Assembly: GCA_021770245.1 (NCBI GenBank)
Contig: JAETRI010000018.1
Location: forward strand, 1-53,658
DNA from: Lachnospiraceae bacterium
GTDB taxonomy: Bacteria; Bacillota; Clostridia; Lachnospirales; Lachnospiraceae
Length of the DNA: 53,658 nucleotides
Reading direction: 5' to 3'
A program made the translations under genes and the position numbers. The notes beneath the pieces are model-generated. The model saw only the letters and a program-made list of their open reading frames with translations, made no database searches and had not been told where the DNA came from. Positions within the stretch are counted from its first letter, which is position 1. Each line of letters opens with the position of its first letter. Below are positions 4,499 through 53,533 of the stretch, piece after piece.

Positions 4499-7472
<2,974 letters not shown>

Positions 7473-7587
7473 CGTTTTCCCGCGCACGGACGGGCGGCAC
7501 CTTATGGAAGCAGTCCCGCGGGCGAAGCCTGCGGGATGCAGGGGTATCAGATTGAAAATTCATATTTTTGATCTCTTTGATTTGATT

Positions 7588-7603
7588 GCCCGCTAAAGCG
7601 GGC
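7588..7603 (+). repeat. Family 1 hairpin in front of guanylate-kinase-like gene
   Basis: GCCCGC-TAAA-GCGGGC followed by AGACGGG and, eight bases after the hairpin's GACGGG, the start ATG 7617. This is the same hairpin-then-AGA pattern as at 25561, 40460, 44245 and 50744. Confidence 0.8.
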
Positions 7604-7616
7604 AGACGGGTATAAC

Positions 7617-8237
7617 ATGGGATTGATCTTTTATATTATGGGAAAAAGCTCTTCGGGAAAGGATACCCTCTATCGGGAACTGCTGGCCGGCGGAAAGTCG
7701 GGCCTGCGTACGCTGATCCCCTATACCACCCGCCCGATGAGGGCGGGAGAGGTAAACGGGAGGGAGTATTTTTTTACGGATGAAGAGGAACTCGCCCGTC
7801 TGAAAGCGGAGGGCCGGGTGATAGAAGAGCGGGTCTATCAGACATGGTATGGTCCCTGGCACTATTTTACCGTGGACGACGGAAGGATAGACTGGGACCG
7901 GGAGGACTGCCTGCTGACGGGAACCCTGGAATCCTTTCGCCGGGTGAGGGATTATTTCGGAAGGGACCGCGTGGTGCCGCTTTATATCGAACTGGACGAC
8001 GGAGAACGCCTGCAGCGCGCCCTGAACCGGGAACGCGCGCAGAAGGAGCCCAAATACGAGGAAATGTGCAGAAGGTTCCTGGCGGACGCGGAGGATTTCC
8101 GGGAGGAAAAAATCCGGGAAGCGGGTATTATGAGGCGCTTTCAAAACGATGACCTGGAGGAATGCTTAGAGCGGCTCAGAAGGTATATGGACGAAGAAAA
8201 GGAGAAGGGGGCGTGCAGCTATGGCAGGATTCGATGA
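7617..8237 (+). CDS. Guanylate kinase-like nucleoside monophosphate kinase
   Basis: A 206-residue P-loop kinase. The Walker A motif GKSSSGKDT is at about 9-17, followed by YTTRPMRAGEVNGREYFF, the guanylate-kinase signature for nucleotide binding. The segment corresponding to the GMP-binding loop (QTWYGPWHYF) differs from canonical Gmk, so substrate assignment is open. The gene occupies the place that thymidylate kinase holds in the Bacillus tmk-yaaQ-yaaR-holB block. It overlaps the holB start by 17 bases, so coupled expression is expected. It could be a paralogue of the housekeeping gmk with another role. Confidence 0.78.
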   Translation: MGLIFYIMGKSSSGKDTLYRELLAGGKSGLRTLIPYTTRPMRAGEVNGREYFFTDEEELARLKAEGRVIEERVYQTWYGPWHYFTVDDGRIDWDREDCLLTGTLESFRRVRDYFGRDRVVPLYIELDDGERLQRALNRERAQKEPKYEEMCRRFLADAEDFREEKIREAGIMRRFQNDDLEECLERLRRYMDEEKEKGACSYGRIR

Positions 8238-16054: not shown

Positions 16055-16248
16055 CGGGCTGTGCGGATATTTCGACTTGGCATTCGATCGGCCGGCCTTC
16101 TCGGAGCGGACTCCAATGGCTTTTCCCGTTTCGTGGCTTACGGTGTGACCGTCCGTAAAAAACGGACGGCTGATCAGGCGGATCGTCTTACTATGCCTTA
16201 CGGCGACGGGCTCGTACAGGATTTGCACCTGTTTCCCCGGGCAGCCCG
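16055..16248 (-). ncRNA. Cobalamin riboswitch
   Basis: On the minus strand the B12-box core is read as AGGTGCAAATCCTGTACG, then GAGCCCGTCGCCGTAA. Farther down come GTAAGCCAC...GGGAAAAGCC and the 3' landmark GCCAAGTCGAAATATCCGC. The order and spacing match the cobalamin riboswitch class. Between it and the gene is a hairpin AGACG-CTCGC/GCGAG-CGTCT without a T run plus a CTCCTCCC stretch that could pair with GGGGAGGA. Control may therefore act on translation rather than termination. It governs the DUF4430-ECF pair. Confidence 0.87.
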
Positions 16249-16254
16249 GTTTTT

Positions 16255-16284
16255 ATCATAATCTGATCAGGCGGTTTCTGTCAA
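16255..16284 (-). promoter_or_regulatory. Promoter of cobalamin riboswitch operon
   Basis: Minus strand: TTGACA (16284-16279), an 18-base spacer, TATGAT (16260-16255). Initiation would fall near 16248, immediately before the riboswitch aptamer. Confidence 0.8.
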
Positions 16285-16302
16285 CCGTTTCTTACTGCCA
16301 GC

Positions 16303-16349
16303 CAGGACAAACACATGAATGGCCCTGCGGCCCCTGTGCCCCGCCCGGA
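16303..16349 (-). repeat. Family 2 repeat copy
   Basis: Read on the minus strand: GGGGCCGCAGGGCCATTCAT then GTGTTTGTCCTG. Nearly identical to copies at 41603-41633, 49923-49975 and 53493-53533. It lies between the divergent riboswitch promoter and spmA. Confidence 0.8.
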
Positions 16350-25349: not shown

Positions 25350-25352
25350 AAT

Positions 25353-25415
25353 AATCCTTCCGTGCCGCGTCCTTCGCGGCAGCACATTTTGTGAATCAAT
25401 TTGGGCCGTCTGCGG
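25353..25415 (-). repeat. Family 1b element in front of NSS transporter
   Basis: Minus strand: GACGGCCCAAATTGATTCAC, a short link, then GCCGCGAAGGACGCGGC (25380-25364) and ACGGAAGGATTATT before the ATG. Same module order as 40530-40626, but without the middle GAAATCGC hairpin. The element's 3' end supplies the Shine-Dalgarno GGAAGGA. Confidence 0.8.
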
Positions 25416-25560: not shown

Positions 25561-25582
25561 GCCCGCTTAAGCGGGCAGGCGG
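25561..25582 (+). repeat. Family 1 hairpin in front of Mrr-like gene
   Basis: GCCCGC-TTAA-GCGGGC followed by AGGCGG and an ATG at 25585. That ATG opens a different frame from the Mrr-like gene, whose own site AGGTGAGG comes later, so this copy may create an upstream competing start. Confidence 0.8.
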
Positions 25583-25606
25583 ATATGAAACCAAATAGGT
25601 GTGAGG

Positions 25607-32437: not shown

Positions 32438-32525
32438 TTCCTGCGGTGAGTTTGTTATAGTCTATGAGGACGGCGCAGGATTCATGACCGGAGGGCGGGG
32501 GAGACATTGAAAATCAGGATATAAA

Positions 32526-32769: not shown

Positions 32770-32855
32770 GTCCTTTCATGCCGCGTTCTTTGCGGCTGCG
32801 CGGTTCGAAATTTGCGGATATAATTTCACATCTGCGGTTCAGATTTGGAAGGGGG
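32770..32855 (-). repeat. Family 1b element in reverse orientation in the araR leader
   Basis: Minus strand: GCCGCAAAGAACGCGGC (32796-32780), then ATGAAAGGACTACT, matching the core and tail of the elements at 40595 and 52024. It points away from araR, and no gene follows it on the minus strand. In the plus transcript it forms the same hairpin within the leader. Confidence 0.75.
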
Positions 32856-35479: not shown

Positions 35480-35502
35480 GCGGGACGCGGCATGAAAGGA
35501 TT
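35480..35502 (+). repeat. Partial family 1b element in front of araB
   Basis: GCGCGGGACGCGGCATGAAAGGATTAAT precursor pieces: GGGACGCGGC then ATGAAAGG and TTAAT before ATG 35506. The right half of the family 1b core is intact while the left arm is altered. Confidence 0.6.
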
Positions 35503-35505
35503 AAT

Positions 35506-37196: not shown

Positions 37197-37895
37197 ATGT
37201 TGGAAGAATTAAAGAAAAGAGTATACGAAGCCAATATGCTTCTTCCCCAATACGGTCTTGTCACGTTTACCTGGGGAAACGTGAGCGAGATCGACCGGGA
37301 AAGCGGCCTGTTTGCCATTAAGCCCAGCGGCGTGGAGTATGATAAGCTTAGCTGGGAGGATATGGTGATCGTGGATTTGGAGGGCAGAAAGGTGGAAGGG
37401 AGATATAATCCTTCCTCGGATACGGCCACCCATGTGGAATTGTATAAGGCGTTTACCCAGGTGGGCGGGATTGTCCATACCCATTCCTCCTATGCCACAA
37501 GCTGGGCGCAGGCAGGACGTTCCATCCCGTGCTACGGAACCACTCATGCGGATTATATCTATAGGGAGGTGCCCTGCGTCAGATGCCTGACCAAGGAGGA
37601 AATAGCAGACGGATATGAGGAAAATACGGGCCATCTGATCGTAAACGAATTCATGGCCCTGGGAAAGGATCCGGTGGCCGTCCCGGCTGTGTTGTGTAAG
37701 AACCACGGCCCCTTTGCCTGGGGAAAGGATGCCCACGAGGCCGTCCACAACGCGGCGGTGCTGGAGGAGGTGGCGAAGATGGCCTACCGTACCGAGATGA
37801 TCCAGCCCCATGTCCAGCCCGCGCCAAGGGAACTGCAGGATAAACATTACTACAGGAAGCACGGTGCGAATGCCTACTATGGACAAAAAGGGTAA
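37197..37895 (+). CDS. araD: L-ribulose-5-phosphate 4-epimerase
   Basis: A 232-residue zinc enzyme of the class II aldolase fold converting L-ribulose 5-phosphate to D-xylulose 5-phosphate. Visible are TFTWGNVSEID, the KPSGVEYD phosphate site, SSDTATHVELYKAF and the zinc motif HTHSSYATSWAQ, plus the third-ligand region CKNHGPFAWG. Completes the arabinose route, feeding the transketolase genes that follow. A 95-base gap with small hairpins separates it from araB. Confidence 0.96.
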   Translation: MLEELKKRVYEANMLLPQYGLVTFTWGNVSEIDRESGLFAIKPSGVEYDKLSWEDMVIVDLEGRKVEGRYNPSSDTATHVELYKAFTQVGGIVHTHSSYATSWAQAGRSIPCYGTTHADYIYREVPCVRCLTKEEIADGYEENTGHLIVNEFMALGKDPVAVPAVLCKNHGPFAWGKDAHEAVHNAAVLEEVAKMAYRTEMIQPHVQPAPRELQDKHYYRKHGANAYYGQKG

Positions 37896-39799: not shown

Positions 39800-40453
39800 A
39801 TGAATATTTTATCGCCATCGATCCTGGCTGCGGACTGTGCCAGGCTGGGGGAACAAATCGACCTGGTGCGCAGAGCGGGCGCCGGGTATCTGCATATTGA
39901 TATCATGGACGGCATGTTTGTTCCGGCCATTTCCTTTGGCATGTGTGTGGTTTCTTCCCTGCGGAAAGCCACGGACATGGTGTTTGACGTGCATCTGATG
40001 GTGGAGGATCCGATCCGCTACGTGGACGAATTCGCGGCGGGCGGGGCGGATATCATCACGGTGCATCTGGAAGCGTGCCGGGATGTGGGGCAAACCCTGG
40101 ATCGGATCCGCAGCCTCGGGAAACGGGTGGGCCTGTCCATCAAGCCGGCCACTCCCGTTTCGGAGGCGGCGCCGTACCTGGACCGGATCGATATGCTGCT
40201 GGTCATGACGGTGGAACCCGGTTTCGGGGGCCAGAAGTATATTCGGGCATCCACCGGAAGGATCCGGGAGGCCCGCCGTCTGATAGAGGACAGAGGGCTG
40301 GATGTGGACGTGGAAGTGGACGGAGGCATTACGAAGGACAACCTGAGGGAAGTTCTGGAAGCCGGGGCCAATGTGATCGTGGCGGGCTCTGCGGTGTTCT
40401 CCGGGGATATTTCCCAAAATGTGCAGAGAATGACGGAGCTTATTCAATCATGA
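39800..40453 (+). CDS. rpe: Ribulose-phosphate 3-epimerase
   Basis: A 217-residue TIM-barrel enzyme interconverting ribulose 5-phosphate and xylulose 5-phosphate. Motifs are LSPSILAADCARL, HIDIMDGMFVPAISFG, VFDVHLMVEDP, VMTVEPGFGGQKY and VDVEVDGGIT. Its place after transketolase is consistent with a pentose-phosphate module in the ara operon. The stop codon lies within the start of the composite repeat at 40450. Confidence 0.96.
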   Translation: MNILSPSILAADCARLGEQIDLVRRAGAGYLHIDIMDGMFVPAISFGMCVVSSLRKATDMVFDVHLMVEDPIRYVDEFAAGGADIITVHLEACRDVGQTLDRIRSLGKRVGLSIKPATPVSEAAPYLDRIDMLLVMTVEPGFGGQKYIRASTGRIREARRLIEDRGLDVDVEVDGGITKDNLREVLEAGANVIVAGSAVFSGDISQNVQRMTELIQS

Positions 40454-40626
40454 ATTTACGCCCGCCGAGGCGGGCAGATGGGAGTTAGGTTGAAAAATAA
40501 GCCTGATGGCTTATTTTTCAACCGTAATTTGTGCCGCCGGCGGCCCAAATGGAATCACAGACGTGAAATCGCATACGAGATTTCATGTCGCGGTGCCGCA
40601 AAGGACGCGGCATGAAAGGGGTTATA
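40450..40626 (+). repeat. Composite family 1 repeat (hairpins in tandem)
   Basis: From rpe's stop to the next ATG, hairpins follow one another. In order they are GCCCGCC-GA-GGCGGGC (40460-40475), GGTTGAAAAATAAGCC-TGAT and its exact complement (40488-40523), GCCGCC/GGCGGC (about 40534-40546), GAAATCGC...GAGATTTC (about 40565-40584), and GCCGCAAAGGACGCGGC (40595-40611) followed by ATGAAAGGGG. The last two-thirds match the minus-strand region before the GNAT gene at 52009-52120. Confidence 0.85.
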
Positions 40627-41593: not shown

Positions 41594-41638
41594 GCGGGGA
41601 CGGGCAGGGGCCGCAGAGCCATTCATGCGTTTCCCTGT
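41594..41638 (+). repeat. Family 2 repeat after the dehydrogenase gene
   Basis: GGGGACGGGCAGGGGCCGCA, then GAGCCATTCATGCGTTTCCC. The same core as at 16303 (minus), 49923 and 53493. Eight bases after the stop codon. Confidence 0.8.
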
Positions 41639-41655
41639 TTTGCGAGACGTGAAAT

Positions 41656-41739: not shown

Positions 41740-42066
41740 TACGAAACGCGATGAGAAAGAGAGTACATTCGTGGAAGCTTTACAGAGAAGCCTTTATGTG
41801 ACAAGTCGGATCACACATGCTGAGAGGGGCGGGGGGAAACGGATGGAAAATGGCTTTTCGAGCAGCGCACCGAACCGTACCGGACGAGGGGCGGCAAGGC
41901 TGCGACAGGCGCCGCCTGTTATAGCGGCAGGGTATCTGGCCGGAGCGCGGCCGCGTACCTGCGAAGGCCCTGTCCGTGAGGACCGGGTGAAGAGAAGTGG
42001 TACCACGGGTTAACTGCCCGTCTTCTTGTTTTAACAAAAGCTTAAAGCAGGGAGACGGGCTTTTGT
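41740..42066 (+). ncRNA. T-box leader (methionine, upstream of metG)
   Basis: The T-box core GAAGTGGTACCACGGG is at about 41994-42009, with GTGGTACCACG standing for the tRNA 3'-end-binding bulge. Upstream, GATGAGAAAGAGAGTAC opens Stem I (from about 41750). Candidate methionine AUG specifier triplets are at 41843-41845 and 41850-41852. Downstream, GCCCGTCTT (42017-42025) pairs with AGACGGGC (about 42054-42061), followed by TTTTGTT, forming the terminator that competes with the antiterminator. Uncharged tRNA-Met is expected to let transcription reach metG. Confidence 0.87.
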
Positions 42067-42214
42067 TATTCGCCCGGGATGCGCTCCGCAGACCGGCGGC
42101 TTTTCTCTAAAAGGAGATTGTTTTTCCCTGCAGGATAAGGAGAAGAAAATCCGGGATTTGTACCGAGAAGCACGGAAACGTTACCTTAATACACAAAATC
42201 CCGCAGAACGAAGG

Positions 42215-42229
42215 GCCGCCTGTGGCGGC
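42215..42229 (+). repeat. Family 1 hairpin in front of metG
   Basis: GCCGCC-TGT-GGCGGC followed by AGAATGAGAGG and ATG 42245. The copy before glpK ends in the same GGCGGCAGAATG. Confidence 0.75.
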
Positions 42230-42244
42230 AGAATGAGAGGAAAC

Positions 42245-44215: not shown

Positions 44216-44244
44216 CCGGGCAGAAAGATCTCCGTGATTTGCAC

Positions 44245-44260
44245 GCGCGCCGAAGCGCGC
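44245..44260 (+). repeat. Family 1 hairpin in front of alpha/beta hydrolase gene
   Basis: GCGCGC-CGAA-GCGCGC followed by AGATTGGAG, which acts as ribosome site for ATG 44276. The stem has changed to GCGCGC on both arms compared with GCCCGC copies, so pairing is preserved. Confidence 0.8.
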
Positions 44261-44275
44261 AGATTGGAGCCGTTT

Positions 44276-45205
44276 ATGGATAAGAAGGAATTTTATTACA
44301 ATTCCGCGGATGGACAGACCCGGATCCACGCGGTGGAGTGGATTCCGGAGGGAAAGCCCCGTTGTGTGCTGCAGATCGTACACGGTATGGCGGAATATGT
44401 GGACAGATATGACAGACTGGCCGTCAGCCTTACGCAAAAGGGGATTCTGGTGGCGGGAAACGACCATTTGGGACACGGGAAAAGCGTGGCGAAGGGAATG
44501 CCCTACGGGTTCTTTAGCAGTGAAAACGCGCCGGATAAGGTGGTGGAGGACGTGCACAGCCTGCGCCGGAAAATTCAGGAGGAGCATCCGGATATTCCCT
44601 ATTTGATTCTGGGGCACAGCATGGGTTCTTTCATCCTGAGAAATTACCTGTGCGTGTATGCACAAGGCCTGGCGGGTGCCATTATCATGGGCACAGGGAT
44701 GCAGCCCAGGAAGCTTCTGCGCTTTTCCCGGGGGCTGGTGCGCGTGCTCACCCTGCTGCAGGGAGAAAAGCACAAGAGCGGCCTGGTGAATATGCTGGCT
44801 TTCGGAAGCTACAACCGCAGGATCCCGCATCCCGTCTCGGCCATGGATTGGCTGTCCCGGGATGCGGCGGAGGTGGCAAAGTATAACCGGGATCCGCTCT
44901 GCGGTTTTACCTTTACGCTGGGCGGATTTGCCACGCTGTTTGCCCTGATCGACAGGCTCCATGAGAAAACGCGTCTGGCGGGTATGCCGAAGGAGCTCCC
45001 GATCCTGTTCATGGCGGGGCGTGAGGATCCGGTGGGGGATTATGGGAAAGCGGTGGAGAGCGTCTACCAGTCCTTCCGGAAACTGGGAATGCGGGAAGTA
45101 TCCCTGAAGCTGTACGAGAATGACAGGCATGAGCTGGTGAACGAGGCGGACCGGGAGCTGGTCTGGAAAGATATCTGCGAATGGGTGCTGCGTACGGCAG
45201 GCTGA
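44276..45205 (+). CDS. Alpha/beta hydrolase (monoacylglycerol lipase/lysophospholipase type)
   Basis: A 309-residue serine hydrolase. Marks are VLQIVHGMAEYVDRYDRLA (oxyanion region), GNDHLGHGKS, the nucleophile elbow LILGHSMGSF, an Asp in LFMAGREDPVGDYG and a His in YENDRHELVNE as the triad. No signal peptide, so cytoplasmic. Such enzymes hydrolyse monoacylglycerols or lysophospholipids; the substrate is inferred. It follows metG by 60 bases. Confidence 0.92.
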   Translation: MDKKEFYYNSADGQTRIHAVEWIPEGKPRCVLQIVHGMAEYVDRYDRLAVSLTQKGILVAGNDHLGHGKSVAKGMPYGFFSSENAPDKVVEDVHSLRRKIQEEHPDIPYLILGHSMGSFILRNYLCVYAQGLAGAIIMGTGMQPRKLLRFSRGLVRVLTLLQGEKHKSGLVNMLAFGSYNRRIPHPVSAMDWLSRDAAEVAKYNRDPLCGFTFTLGGFATLFALIDRLHEKTRLAGMPKELPILFMAGREDPVGDYGKAVESVYQSFRKLGMREVSLKLYENDRHELVNEADRELVWKDICEWVLRTAG

Positions 45206-49831: not shown

Positions 49832-49848
49832 GAAAAACGCACGTAAAA

Positions 49849-49975
49849 AGGAGAAACGCAAGAATGACCCTGCGGCCCCTACGCCACCCCTGCCCGTCCC
49901 CTCTGTGCTCATCACACGCCTCGGGGACGGGCAGGGGTGGCGCAGGGGCCGCAGGGCCATTCTTGCGTTTCTCCT
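49849..49975. repeat. 53-bp-arm inverted repeat built from family 2 elements
   Basis: The arms 49849-49901 and 49923-49975 are inverted copies matching at 51 of 53 positions around a 21-base loop. Each arm carries the family 2 core (GGGGCCGCAGGGCCATTC). Both mismatches are A-C in the plus transcript but G-U in the minus transcript, so the minus RNA (downstream of nrdG) can pair along its whole length. It lies between convergent genes and may serve as a two-way transcript end. Confidence 0.92.
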
Positions 49976-50035
49976 GGCACGTAATCCTGGTGCGGCCGGA
50001 TGAATGCCATGGCCTCAGGTTGGCTGCATTGGCGC

Positions 50036-50731: not shown

Positions 50732-50743
50732 CTTAACCTTCCT

Positions 50744-50759
50744 GCCCGCTTCAGCGGGC
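50744..50759 (-). repeat. Family 1 hairpin in front of nrdG
   Basis: Minus strand: TGAATTTACGCCCGCTGAAG then CGGGCAGGAAGG, before the nrdG ATG. The flank TGAATTTACGCCCGC is identical to the left edge of the element after rpe (40451-40465). Confidence 0.82.
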
Positions 50760-50843
50760 GTAAATTCATGGTTGAAAATATCAATTCTGAAGCTTGAACC
50801 CTTCTGTGAGACGCGTCTTTTTTATCCGTTTCTGTATTTAAAT

Positions 50844-52008: not shown

Positions 52009-52011
52009 TTT

Positions 52012-52140
52012 AACCCCTTTCATGCTGCGTCCTTTGCGGCAATCGCGATGAGAAATCGCGGATGCGATTTCTCATCTGCGATTCCATTTGGGCCGCCTGC
52101 GGCCCAAATGCCGGTTGAAAAAAGGAGAGTAAATCCTCTC
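52012..52140 (-). repeat. Composite family 1b repeat in front of the GNAT gene
   Basis: Minus strand, in order: a small hairpin GAGAG...CTCTC with seven T (52140-52117), TTTTCAACC, GGGCCGCAGGCGGCCC, AATGGAATCGCAGATGAGAA and ATCGC hairpins, then GCCGCAAAGGACGCAGC (52040-52024), ATGAAAGGGGTTAAA and the GNAT start. Near-identical in order and sequence to 40515-40626. The 5' hairpin with T run could end transcription early. Confidence 0.85.
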
Positions 52141-53453: not shown

Positions 53454-53533
53454 CAGCCACCCTGCAGGTTCCCGGACGCCAGGGTGCACAGGGGTGGCGC
53501 AGGGGCCGCAGGGCCATTCATGCGTTTGTCCTG
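53454..53533 (+). repeat. Family 2 repeat after the XRE-methyltransferase gene
   Basis: CAGCCACCCTGCAGGTTCCC GGACGCC part, then GGGGTGGCGCAGGGGCCGCA and GGGCCATTCATGCGTTTGTC. It joins the CAGCCACC half seen at 45224 and the GGCCGCAGGGCCATTC half seen at 49923, starting at the stop codon. Confidence 0.85.

Follow-up and report, generated by a model that had tools for sequence, protein, structure and literature searches.

A stretch of Lachnospiraceae DNA raised the question of why short GC-rich hairpins, each followed by a Shine-Dalgarno (SD) sequence, should stand just before the start codons of genes with unrelated functions. The stretch analysed, called the window below (53,658 nucleotides; Lachnospiraceae bacterium, GCA_021770245.1, contig JAETRI010000018.1), is an entire contig of a draft genome (G000; 4,281,116 bases, 96.4% complete). 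An initial annotation listed 11 such places, assigned them to a single family, and proposed a mobile or duplicating 5' leader repeat that supplies or gates translation initiation. In this study, the places were checked in the sequence and compared across 13 species of the genus, mainly with the sister species G107. Both genomes are drafts, 96-97% complete, and their aligned pieces are mostly 81-90% identical. Gene starts were called with a home-made gene caller without annotation, and counts of called starts and genes below refer to these calls. The 40 stretches taken from G000 were mostly picked near one of the families (family A). We consider it probable that the places are hairpin-ribosome-binding-site (RBS) cassettes, i.e., several dispersed repeat families ending at the start codons of unrelated genes; that they are spreading repeats that carry an RBS is very likely.

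Several cassette families are present in the window, each with a GC hairpin, an SD, a spacer, and ATG (Table 1). All 11 listed places were examined, and the hairpin-RBS arrangement was confirmed and found to be larger than reported. Eight of them have a perfect stem of 5 bp or more. The stem ended 12-16 nt before the start codon in seven: the kinase at 7617, the sodium:neurotransmitter symporter (NSS), araA, the dehydrogenase, metG, the hydrolase, and nrdG. The eighth, at the Mrr-like gene, ends 24 nt before the called GTG at 25601; the ATG beside the hairpin (25585) is out of frame with that gene. The remaining three are weaker: glpK has a perfect stem of 4 bp, the araB copy is 5'-truncated (4 bp), and the GNAT place has no GC-sufficient perfect 4-bp stem and contains one mismatch. 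Within the interval 40450-40626, five palindromes (M1, M2, M3, M4, and M6) form a composite closed by AAAGGGG and a short spacer, directly followed by the start codon ATG of a 2-hydroxyacid dehydrogenase gene. M1, M7, and M6 do not have the form of intrinsic terminators (GC hairpin plus T run), their tails being purine-rich SDs; only the inner module M2 looks terminator-like. Rfam searches at gathering score reported only tRNA, rRNA, and cobalamin models in the whole window, with no match to a cassette, and no match at four loci.

Table 1. Cassettes and modules of the window (coordinates on the forward strand).
Feature	Position	Strand	Remarks
M1 unit, hairpin GCCCGC-CGAG-GCGGGC, tail AGATGGGAG	40451..40484	+	R1 match 36.8 bits
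Module M2, palindrome rich in AT (GGTTGAAAAATAAGCC/GGCTTATTTTTCAACC), resembling a terminator by eye	40488..40523	+	Also in other family A copies
Module M3, imperfect palindrome AATTTGTGCCGCCG/GCGGCCCAAAT	40526..40550	+	Sequence; repeat arms I1, I24
Module M4, imperfect palindrome GACGTGAAATCGC/GAGATTTCATGTC	40560..40589	+	Sequence
M6, family A terminal hairpin TGCCGC-AAAGGAC-GCGGCA	40594..40612	+	16-mer core at 68 genome places with at most one mismatch
Family A SD and spacer TGAAAGGGGTTATA	40613..40626	+	Abuts ATG 40627, 2-hydroxyacid dehydrogenase
Family A copy, 5'-truncated, between araA and araB	35484..35505	+	ATG 35506
Family A composite (M2 end, M3, M4, M6, SD) before GNAT gene	52009..52122	-	ATG 52008; repeats I1, I6
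Family A copy before NSS gene	25350..25391	-	ATG 25349
Family A copy, no start directly beside	32772..32807	-	265 nt upstream of minus-strand ORF starting at 32507
M1 cassette before alpha/beta hydrolase gene	44235..44275	+	ATG 44276; missing at the orthologous site of G107
M1 cassette before guanylate-kinase-like gene	7578..7616	+	ATG 7617
M7 cassette GCCGCC-TGT-GGCGGC, AGAATGAGAGGAAAC, before metG	42215..42244	+	ATG 42245
Hairpin GCCGC-AAAAA-GCGGC and SD tail before araA	33945..33975	+	ATG 33976
M1-like GCCCGC-TGAA-GCGGGC, tail AGGAAGGTTAAG, before radical SAM gene (nrdG initially)	50732..50771	-	ATG 50731; weak R1 match, E 0.063
M1-like hairpin upstream of Mrr-like ORF	25561..25582	+	Weak R1 match, E 0.45
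M7-like hairpin and SD before FGGY kinase gene (glpK initially)	5944..5975	+	ATG 5976

The single family originally proposed holds as a shared hairpin-SD plan; in sequence the copies fall into several unlike families (A, M1, M7, and M8). Family A follows the pattern GCCGC-nnnnnnn-GCGGC-ATGAAAGG and, in the window, includes the dehydrogenase, NSS, araB, and GNAT places and the copy at 32772-32807. M1 (TGATTTGnnTGCGCGCnAAAGCGCGCAGATGGGAG) includes the kinase, the hydrolase, and 40451-40484. M7 (GCCGCC-loop-GGCGGC-AGAATGnGAGGAAA) includes metG and probably glpK and araA; the glpK hairpin and the metG copy share the direct repeat D17. M8 (TATCGCAGGC-loop-GCCTGCGATATGCAGGGG) was found at five places in the G000 stretches and at one in G107. 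The stems GCCCGC, GCGCGC, and GCCGCC, cited initially as variants of one set, belong to M1 (the first two) and M7 (the last). A 20-mer of family A had five matches with up to three mismatches in the window vs. 0.02 in shuffled sequences, and its 16-mer core had 68 places in G000 with up to one mismatch vs. none for the reversed pattern. Family A copies are built from the same modules, some complete, others internally deleted or truncated at the 5' end, and most of them stop a few bases short of a start codon. Exact matches to the core in Prevotella contigs (4 of 12 stretches) were single, without the rest of the element, and were taken as chance. M1 was searched with R1, a covariance model of 35 positions that excludes the start codon and was trained on 30 start-adjacent copies with perfect stems; with 150 candidates scored per genome, at least 150 copies were found in G000 and 157 in G107. 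Recognized cassettes stand at 66 of the 582 starts in the G107 stretches. The genes that carry them are functionally unrelated in all ten cases tested, as had been stated initially.

Similarity between copies extends toward the start codon. ATG was used at 146 of 149 recognized element starts vs. 770 of 840 other starts. Spacer conservation, calculated from 11 to 83 sequences per family, was 1.19 bits in M7 and 0.88 and 1.30 bits in two forms of A vs. 0.06 bits at other starts; M1 spacers are weakly conserved (0.33 bits). Past the start codon conservation drops to 0.26-0.44 bits, compared with 0.13 bits at other starts. The sequence shows copies by the dozen to well over a hundred per family, in sense orientation and either at a start codon or upstream of one. 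Each family keeps its own sequence across the SD and, in the case of M7 and A, also across the spacer as far as the ATG. Cassettes can also stand one behind another, with the last at the start codon.

The positions of M1 were determined with R1 (E up to 0.01) in 22 G107 stretches, none chosen for M1, two chosen for family A and two for synteny; a start counted as adjacent when it opened an ORF of 60 codons or more and lay no farther than 25 nt away. Such a start was found for 42 of the 81 matches (35 at 5-6 nt), another 38 preceded a gene on the same strand by up to 400 nt, and a single match lay elsewhere. The blind subset of 18 stretches gave 39, 33, and 1 of 73, respectively, and a random intergenic control 18% at starts, 30% upstream, and 52% elsewhere. 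Only four of the 81 matches overlap a called same-strand gene: three lie 27-107 nt behind a called start, which may be miscalled, and the fourth covers the last bases of its gene. No match was antisense inside a gene (0/81). A called gene start lies directly beside only 33 of the 81. Among the 39 matches without an adjacent ORF start, 32 have another M1 match within 100 nt downstream, so that the matches are not independent; neighboring matches are mostly spaced 61-67 nt apart. In the G000 stretches M1 was at a start in 36 of 54 cases, upstream in 13, and away from any same-strand start in 5; the corresponding counts for family A were 35 of 50 (28 at 6-7 nt), 11, and 4, and all six family A matches in G107 were at starts. 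M7, searched by its tail alone, was at starts in 32 of 41 cases in G107 (26 of these exactly 4 nt from the start codon; of the matches not at starts, 4 lay inside genes and 5 upstream) and in 16 of 20 in G000. The bias toward start codons and the agreement in strand that were expected at the outset were both borne out, with 80 of the 81 G107 matches of M1 at or upstream of a same-strand gene; the strand- and start-blind insertion of a MITE was not seen in these matches.

A same-strand upstream neighbor is present at 34 of 37 M1 starts in G107 vs. 418 of 516 starts without a recognized cassette, a weak tendency toward operon positions. The TGA of M1 coincides with the stop codon of the upstream gene in only 2 of the 83 copies compared, vs. 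54 of 1056 TGA in the control, and this role was rejected. Tandem M1 arrays were observed in several G107 leaders (L192:6837-7068, L195:6454-6813, L198:8301-8536, L193:13502-13779, and L202:4768-5117), mostly with a period of 61-67 nt. Their units often end with GGGAGCAAGG or a similar sequence, followed by TTGAAA or a like word that resembles a start codon. A relay of mini-ORFs was rejected, since the lengths of the ORFs ending there vary.

Turnover of the cassettes between the sister species is high. Among the leaders listed from syntenic stretches of the 13 species, those of the same genes (araA, araB, and the gene at 37197) differ in most species. The araB leader is a truncated family A copy in G000, three tandem M1-like units in G107, and a composite resembling M2-M3-M4 in G201; the araA leader of G107 has the same stem as the window copy with a different loop. 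At 72 orthologous starts of G000 and G107, with the G000 side enriched for family A, a hairpin was present in neither species at 42, in one only at 18, and in both at 12. By eye, four of these 12 belong to the same family, six to different families, and two are ambiguous. A screen of 71 orthologous pairs left 10 after an indel filter, of which four are near-clean insertions or deletions; the other six are tandem-copy differences, messy, or not these elements. At L083 a 38-nt M1 unit stands between the old SD and the start. An M1 unit likewise separates the SD from the ATG at 44276 of the window; it is lacking in G107 and in the other congeners shown, and this is the only site at which insertion and deletion were polarized. 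At L087, 79 nt of family A lie between a stop codon and the native GGAGG, before the SD. The pair L097/L193 shares one M1 unit; in G107 alone it is followed by 229 nt, made up of more M1 units plus one M7 unit, that separate the old SD from the ATG. This pair is our best evidence for accretion at the start codon, and loss in G000 is the other possible reading. The junctions are thus not uniform, being before the SD at L087 and between SD and ATG at L083 and 44276; compared by eye at these four sites only, they differ by site and show no visible shared target duplication. The presence/absence sites and the insertion at orthologous positions uphold the initial description of dispersed, duplicating 5' leader repeats that carry an SD. 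As a separate observation, L087:1765-1856 has sub-threshold matches to several microRNA models on both strands, probably because of a long palindrome.

Parasitic repeats of MITE or BOX type could in principle produce this pattern by inserting anywhere, the bias toward starts resulting from selection and from an SD that rescues the gene. Their modular composites, tandem growth, high turnover between sisters, and lineage bursts would all be expected of such a parasite. However, neutral copies would then be expected, and only one of 81 M1 matches in G107 is neither at nor upstream of a same-strand gene, with none antisense in genes; in addition, a Y1 transposase is missing from both high-copy genomes, and no target duplication common to the four junctions could be seen. 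We consider this explanation unlikely, if still to be reckoned with.

In its most far-reaching form, put forward with somewhat less than even confidence, the cassette explanation would make the translation-initiation region (hairpin with SD and spacer) a novel genetic unit, selfish or shared, that moves between genes at start codons and needs no transposase; several competing families, present sporadically in other genera of Lachnospiraceae, would stack their units and renew and exchange the RBSs of about a tenth of a genome's genes. In the explanation that we prefer, cassettes would be copied from leader to leader by template switching or by short-homology gene conversion. The SD-spacer-ATG would serve as the right-hand homology that fixes orientation and position, and the palindromes would provoke the template switch. 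Such switching or conversion seems the likeliest route because the shared SD-spacer-ATG would give strand and position for free, and template switching is proposed tentatively; the alternative route would be a lost or unrecognized mobilizer. Once in place, the cassette would supply the SD, and the hairpin directly 5' of it may form a barrier, either shielding initiation from the sequence upstream or protecting a 5' end produced by processing. Replacement or insulation of initiation is rated at slightly less than even as the function.

The distribution of M1 was examined beyond the sister pair. R1 matches in other congeners numbered 20, 14, 11, 10, and 1, with zero in six, five of which are drafts of 77-89% completeness. 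In a family-wide sample (E up to 0.001, 27 candidates scored per genome), M1 was found in at least 12 of 250 genomes (11 of 249 genera, its own included), and in an order-wide sample in 4 of 295, all of them Lachnospiraceae. Ten loci from other genera were inspected: in eight, the end of the model is followed by a start codon at a distance of 4-7 nt, one has a start at 10 nt (a 67-codon ORF), and one has none. From these search counts, M1 is sporadic in the family and amplified in one sister pair. Two exact M1 patterns gave 0 matches in viral_contigs, where phage carriage was looked for. The congeners G208 and G201 apparently possess separate hairpin-RBS families in their leaders (L145, L148, L230, and L232), such as GCCGCC-loop-GGCGGC-AAATAAAAAGAGG in G208.

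The initial annotation noted that pairing is kept while bases change. This is true of M1: in 67 copies found through their flanks alone (no stem required, none dropped, and rows fetched with the model left out), 90.0% of the stem cells pair, and all six pairs show changes on both sides. Covariation was 0.331 vs. 0.173 in shuffles (0 of 500 as high) and at most 0.127 in slid controls; kinship of the copies can inflate the shuffle control and not the slide control. An alternative set of 69 rows, with four poorly pairing copies dropped and six model-fetched ones included, gave 94.2% pairing and a covariation of 0.342. Apart from this set, the orthologous pair L092/L218 keeps its stem with a change on both sides (GCCGTC/GACGGC vs. 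GCCGCC/GGCGGC). The initial statement does not extend to family A, whose stem is nearly invariant and whose covariation was not above shuffles (90 of 93 copies aligned, three poor ones left out).

A conserved stem next to an SD could also indicate a regulon, in which the hairpin is a protein site, a switch, or a thermometer that gates many SDs at once. The hairpin-SD geometry is fixed, and in 22 of 89 M1 copies the stretch that precedes TGA can pair with the SD at all five positions. M1 leaders are also more paired in a coarse window from -16 to -7, which includes stem bases (0.39 unpaired vs. 0.50 with shuffled upstream sequence and 0.47 in other genes). The two family A species both have CsrA, and the M6 loop often holds AGGA, which we take to be CsrA-like. 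However, CsrA was found in 5 of 13 congeners and does not track M1, being absent from G201 and G203, which have M1; the GGA of the loop is often lost, and the ten genes tested are unrelated. The CTCCC anti-SD stretch does not covary with the M1 SD (657 of 2000 shuffles as high), and SD bases in M1 leaders are not more buried than in controls (0.41 unpaired vs. 0.43 with shuffled upstream sequence; 41 starts, p 0.33). An SD-sequestering riboswitch or thermometer is not supported by the latter comparison, with the coarse window leaning the opposite way. A regulon is improbable on these data, and the initial suggestion that the element gates initiation finds no support in SD accessibility, which does not differ from that of controls with shuffled upstream sequence, or in CTCCC/SD covariation.

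Small palindromic elements with a fixed orientation to a short target resemble IS200/IS605 or REP logic. The cassettes might be mobilized in trans by a transposon, still autonomous or lost not long ago, with either an HUH/Y1 enzyme like that of REP or a reverse transcriptase, and their small palindromes, fixed orientation, and the variable 5' truncation and fixed 3' end of family A would fit. However, no Y1 transposase (PF01797, Y1_Tnp) was detected in the G000 and G107 drafts, RVT_1 had no match in G107 and three in G000, and the genomes with Y1 genes (G205, G203, and G201) have just 10-20 M1 matches. A transposon is distinctly improbable, and the initial word 'mobile', in the sense of a transposase, is unsupported by these searches for Y1 and RVT_1.

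Enrichment over chance was estimated by counting starts with a perfect stem of 6 bp or longer no more than 50 nt upstream, with dinucleotide shuffles as control. Such hairpins were present at 75 of 387 starts in G000 (shuffles, 7.4), a rate inflated because the stretches were mostly chosen near family A, and at 75 of 606 in G107 (shuffles, 8.5), where 42 stretches were used, two chosen for synteny, five including family A places, and the rest contig beginnings. Without the starts bearing a recognized family A core, the G000 count was 60 of 354 vs. 7.9; at least eight of the 60 are still family A copies, for which the caller had placed the start within the element itself. In congener stretches not chosen for hairpins, some of them near previously found matches, hairpins were present at 4 of 70 starts in G201 (shuffles, 0.9), 6 of 85 in G208 (0.6), 3 of 70 in G203 (0.2), and 5 of 80 in G210 (0.7). 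Other genera of Lachnospiraceae, mostly of lower GC, had 2 of 219 vs. 0.9 (20 genomes, 16 with called starts). Hairpins after stop codons are also frequent (56 of 587 in G107 and 51 of 362 in G000), as terminators would give, so that the raw count is weak evidence. The discriminating features are the peak 12-17 nt before the start together with the conserved SD tails and spacing. The absence of any repeat, with hairpins due to base composition or to ordinary terminators of the upstream gene, is compatible with a GC content of about 0.48-0.56 in the genus stretches and with the hairpins behind stop codons, but has a negligible probability given the G000 excess over dinucleotide shuffles and is excluded by the identity between copies, the conserved tails, the exact spacing, and the presence/absence sites.

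Interspersed repeats are commonly assumed to occupy harmless positions. REP/RAYT elements are dispersed palindromes in intergenic DNA; unlike them, the cassettes are placed at the next start codon, and the high-copy genomes are without Y1 transposase. In Firmicutes, 5' mRNA stabilizer hairpins such as those of the ermC and aprE leaders, which stand near the SD, could protect the transcript; these are single leaders, whereas the cassettes are a spreading repeat. In the sections cited here, BOX elements of Streptococcus pneumoniae are modular and palindromic, 67-637 bp long, with nested repeat families, and occur in related species; they have been suggested to be parasitic, with terminal inverted repeats and target duplications, and repeat over-representation between convergent genes is tabulated (PMC3049150). 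The cassettes resemble BOX in plan, as modular palindromes in many copies. They differ in being sense, at start codons, and with the SD inside; no SD is named in those sections as carried by BOX (PMC3049150). Prokaryotic MITEs, Correia/NEMIS, and ERIC are described as small interspersed transcript hairpins that can alter mRNA processing (PMC10969869, PMC2229807). The words 'ribosome', 'start codon', and 'Shine-Dalgarno' are absent from the main text of the 2024 MITE review (PMC10969869), and 'start codon' from the cited text of the 2007 review (PMC2229807); no position rule like that of the cassettes was found in these texts. Similar in position are the TAACTGA repeats of Beggiatoaceae, of which the cited sections describe 169 sets; most of the sets immediately precede putative start codons, mainly in forward orientation, with no pattern in gene function and no known mobilizer (PMC4679880). 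Those are 7-bp repeats with little SD character and no predicted stable stem (PMC4679880), unlike the 35-190 nt hairpins with their own SD described here. No description of such start-codon cassettes was found among the listed titles and opening abstract sentences of openly licensed papers on repeats, SD, and start codons.

Since the repeats bring an SD to the translation start, the expression of many genes could change by the insertion or exchange of one cassette. This raises the question of how copying specific to start codon and strand can occur without a known recombinase. The more than one hundred natural hairpin-RBS leaders are also a set in which the effect of an SD-adjacent hairpin could be measured.

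Some further features of the window were observed. M2, with an A-run, GC stem, and T-run at 40488-40523 and in family A copies, resembles a two-way terminator within a 5' leader and is a possible attenuator. A peptide encoded in the composite was rejected, since the M2 arms vary in length together and the frame is lost (by eye). Upstream of metG, at 41960-42070, a T-box-like GGTACCACGGG is followed by a terminator-like hairpin, by eye; Rfam reported no T-box there at gathering score. In G000 the M7 unit lies between this apparent T-box leader and the start codon; at the orthologous site of G107 there is no M7 unit and no such hairpin before the metG start. A cobalamin riboswitch was detected at 16160-16281 on the minus strand (Rfam, 34.8 bits). 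Another interspersed palindromic family, CAGGGGCCGCAGGGCCATTCATGCGTTTGTCCTG, occurs at 16301-16345, 41594-41644, 49842-49978, and 53489-53533; one copy is a 53-nt inverted repeat with 96% complementarity, and similar sequence is present in G107 leaders.
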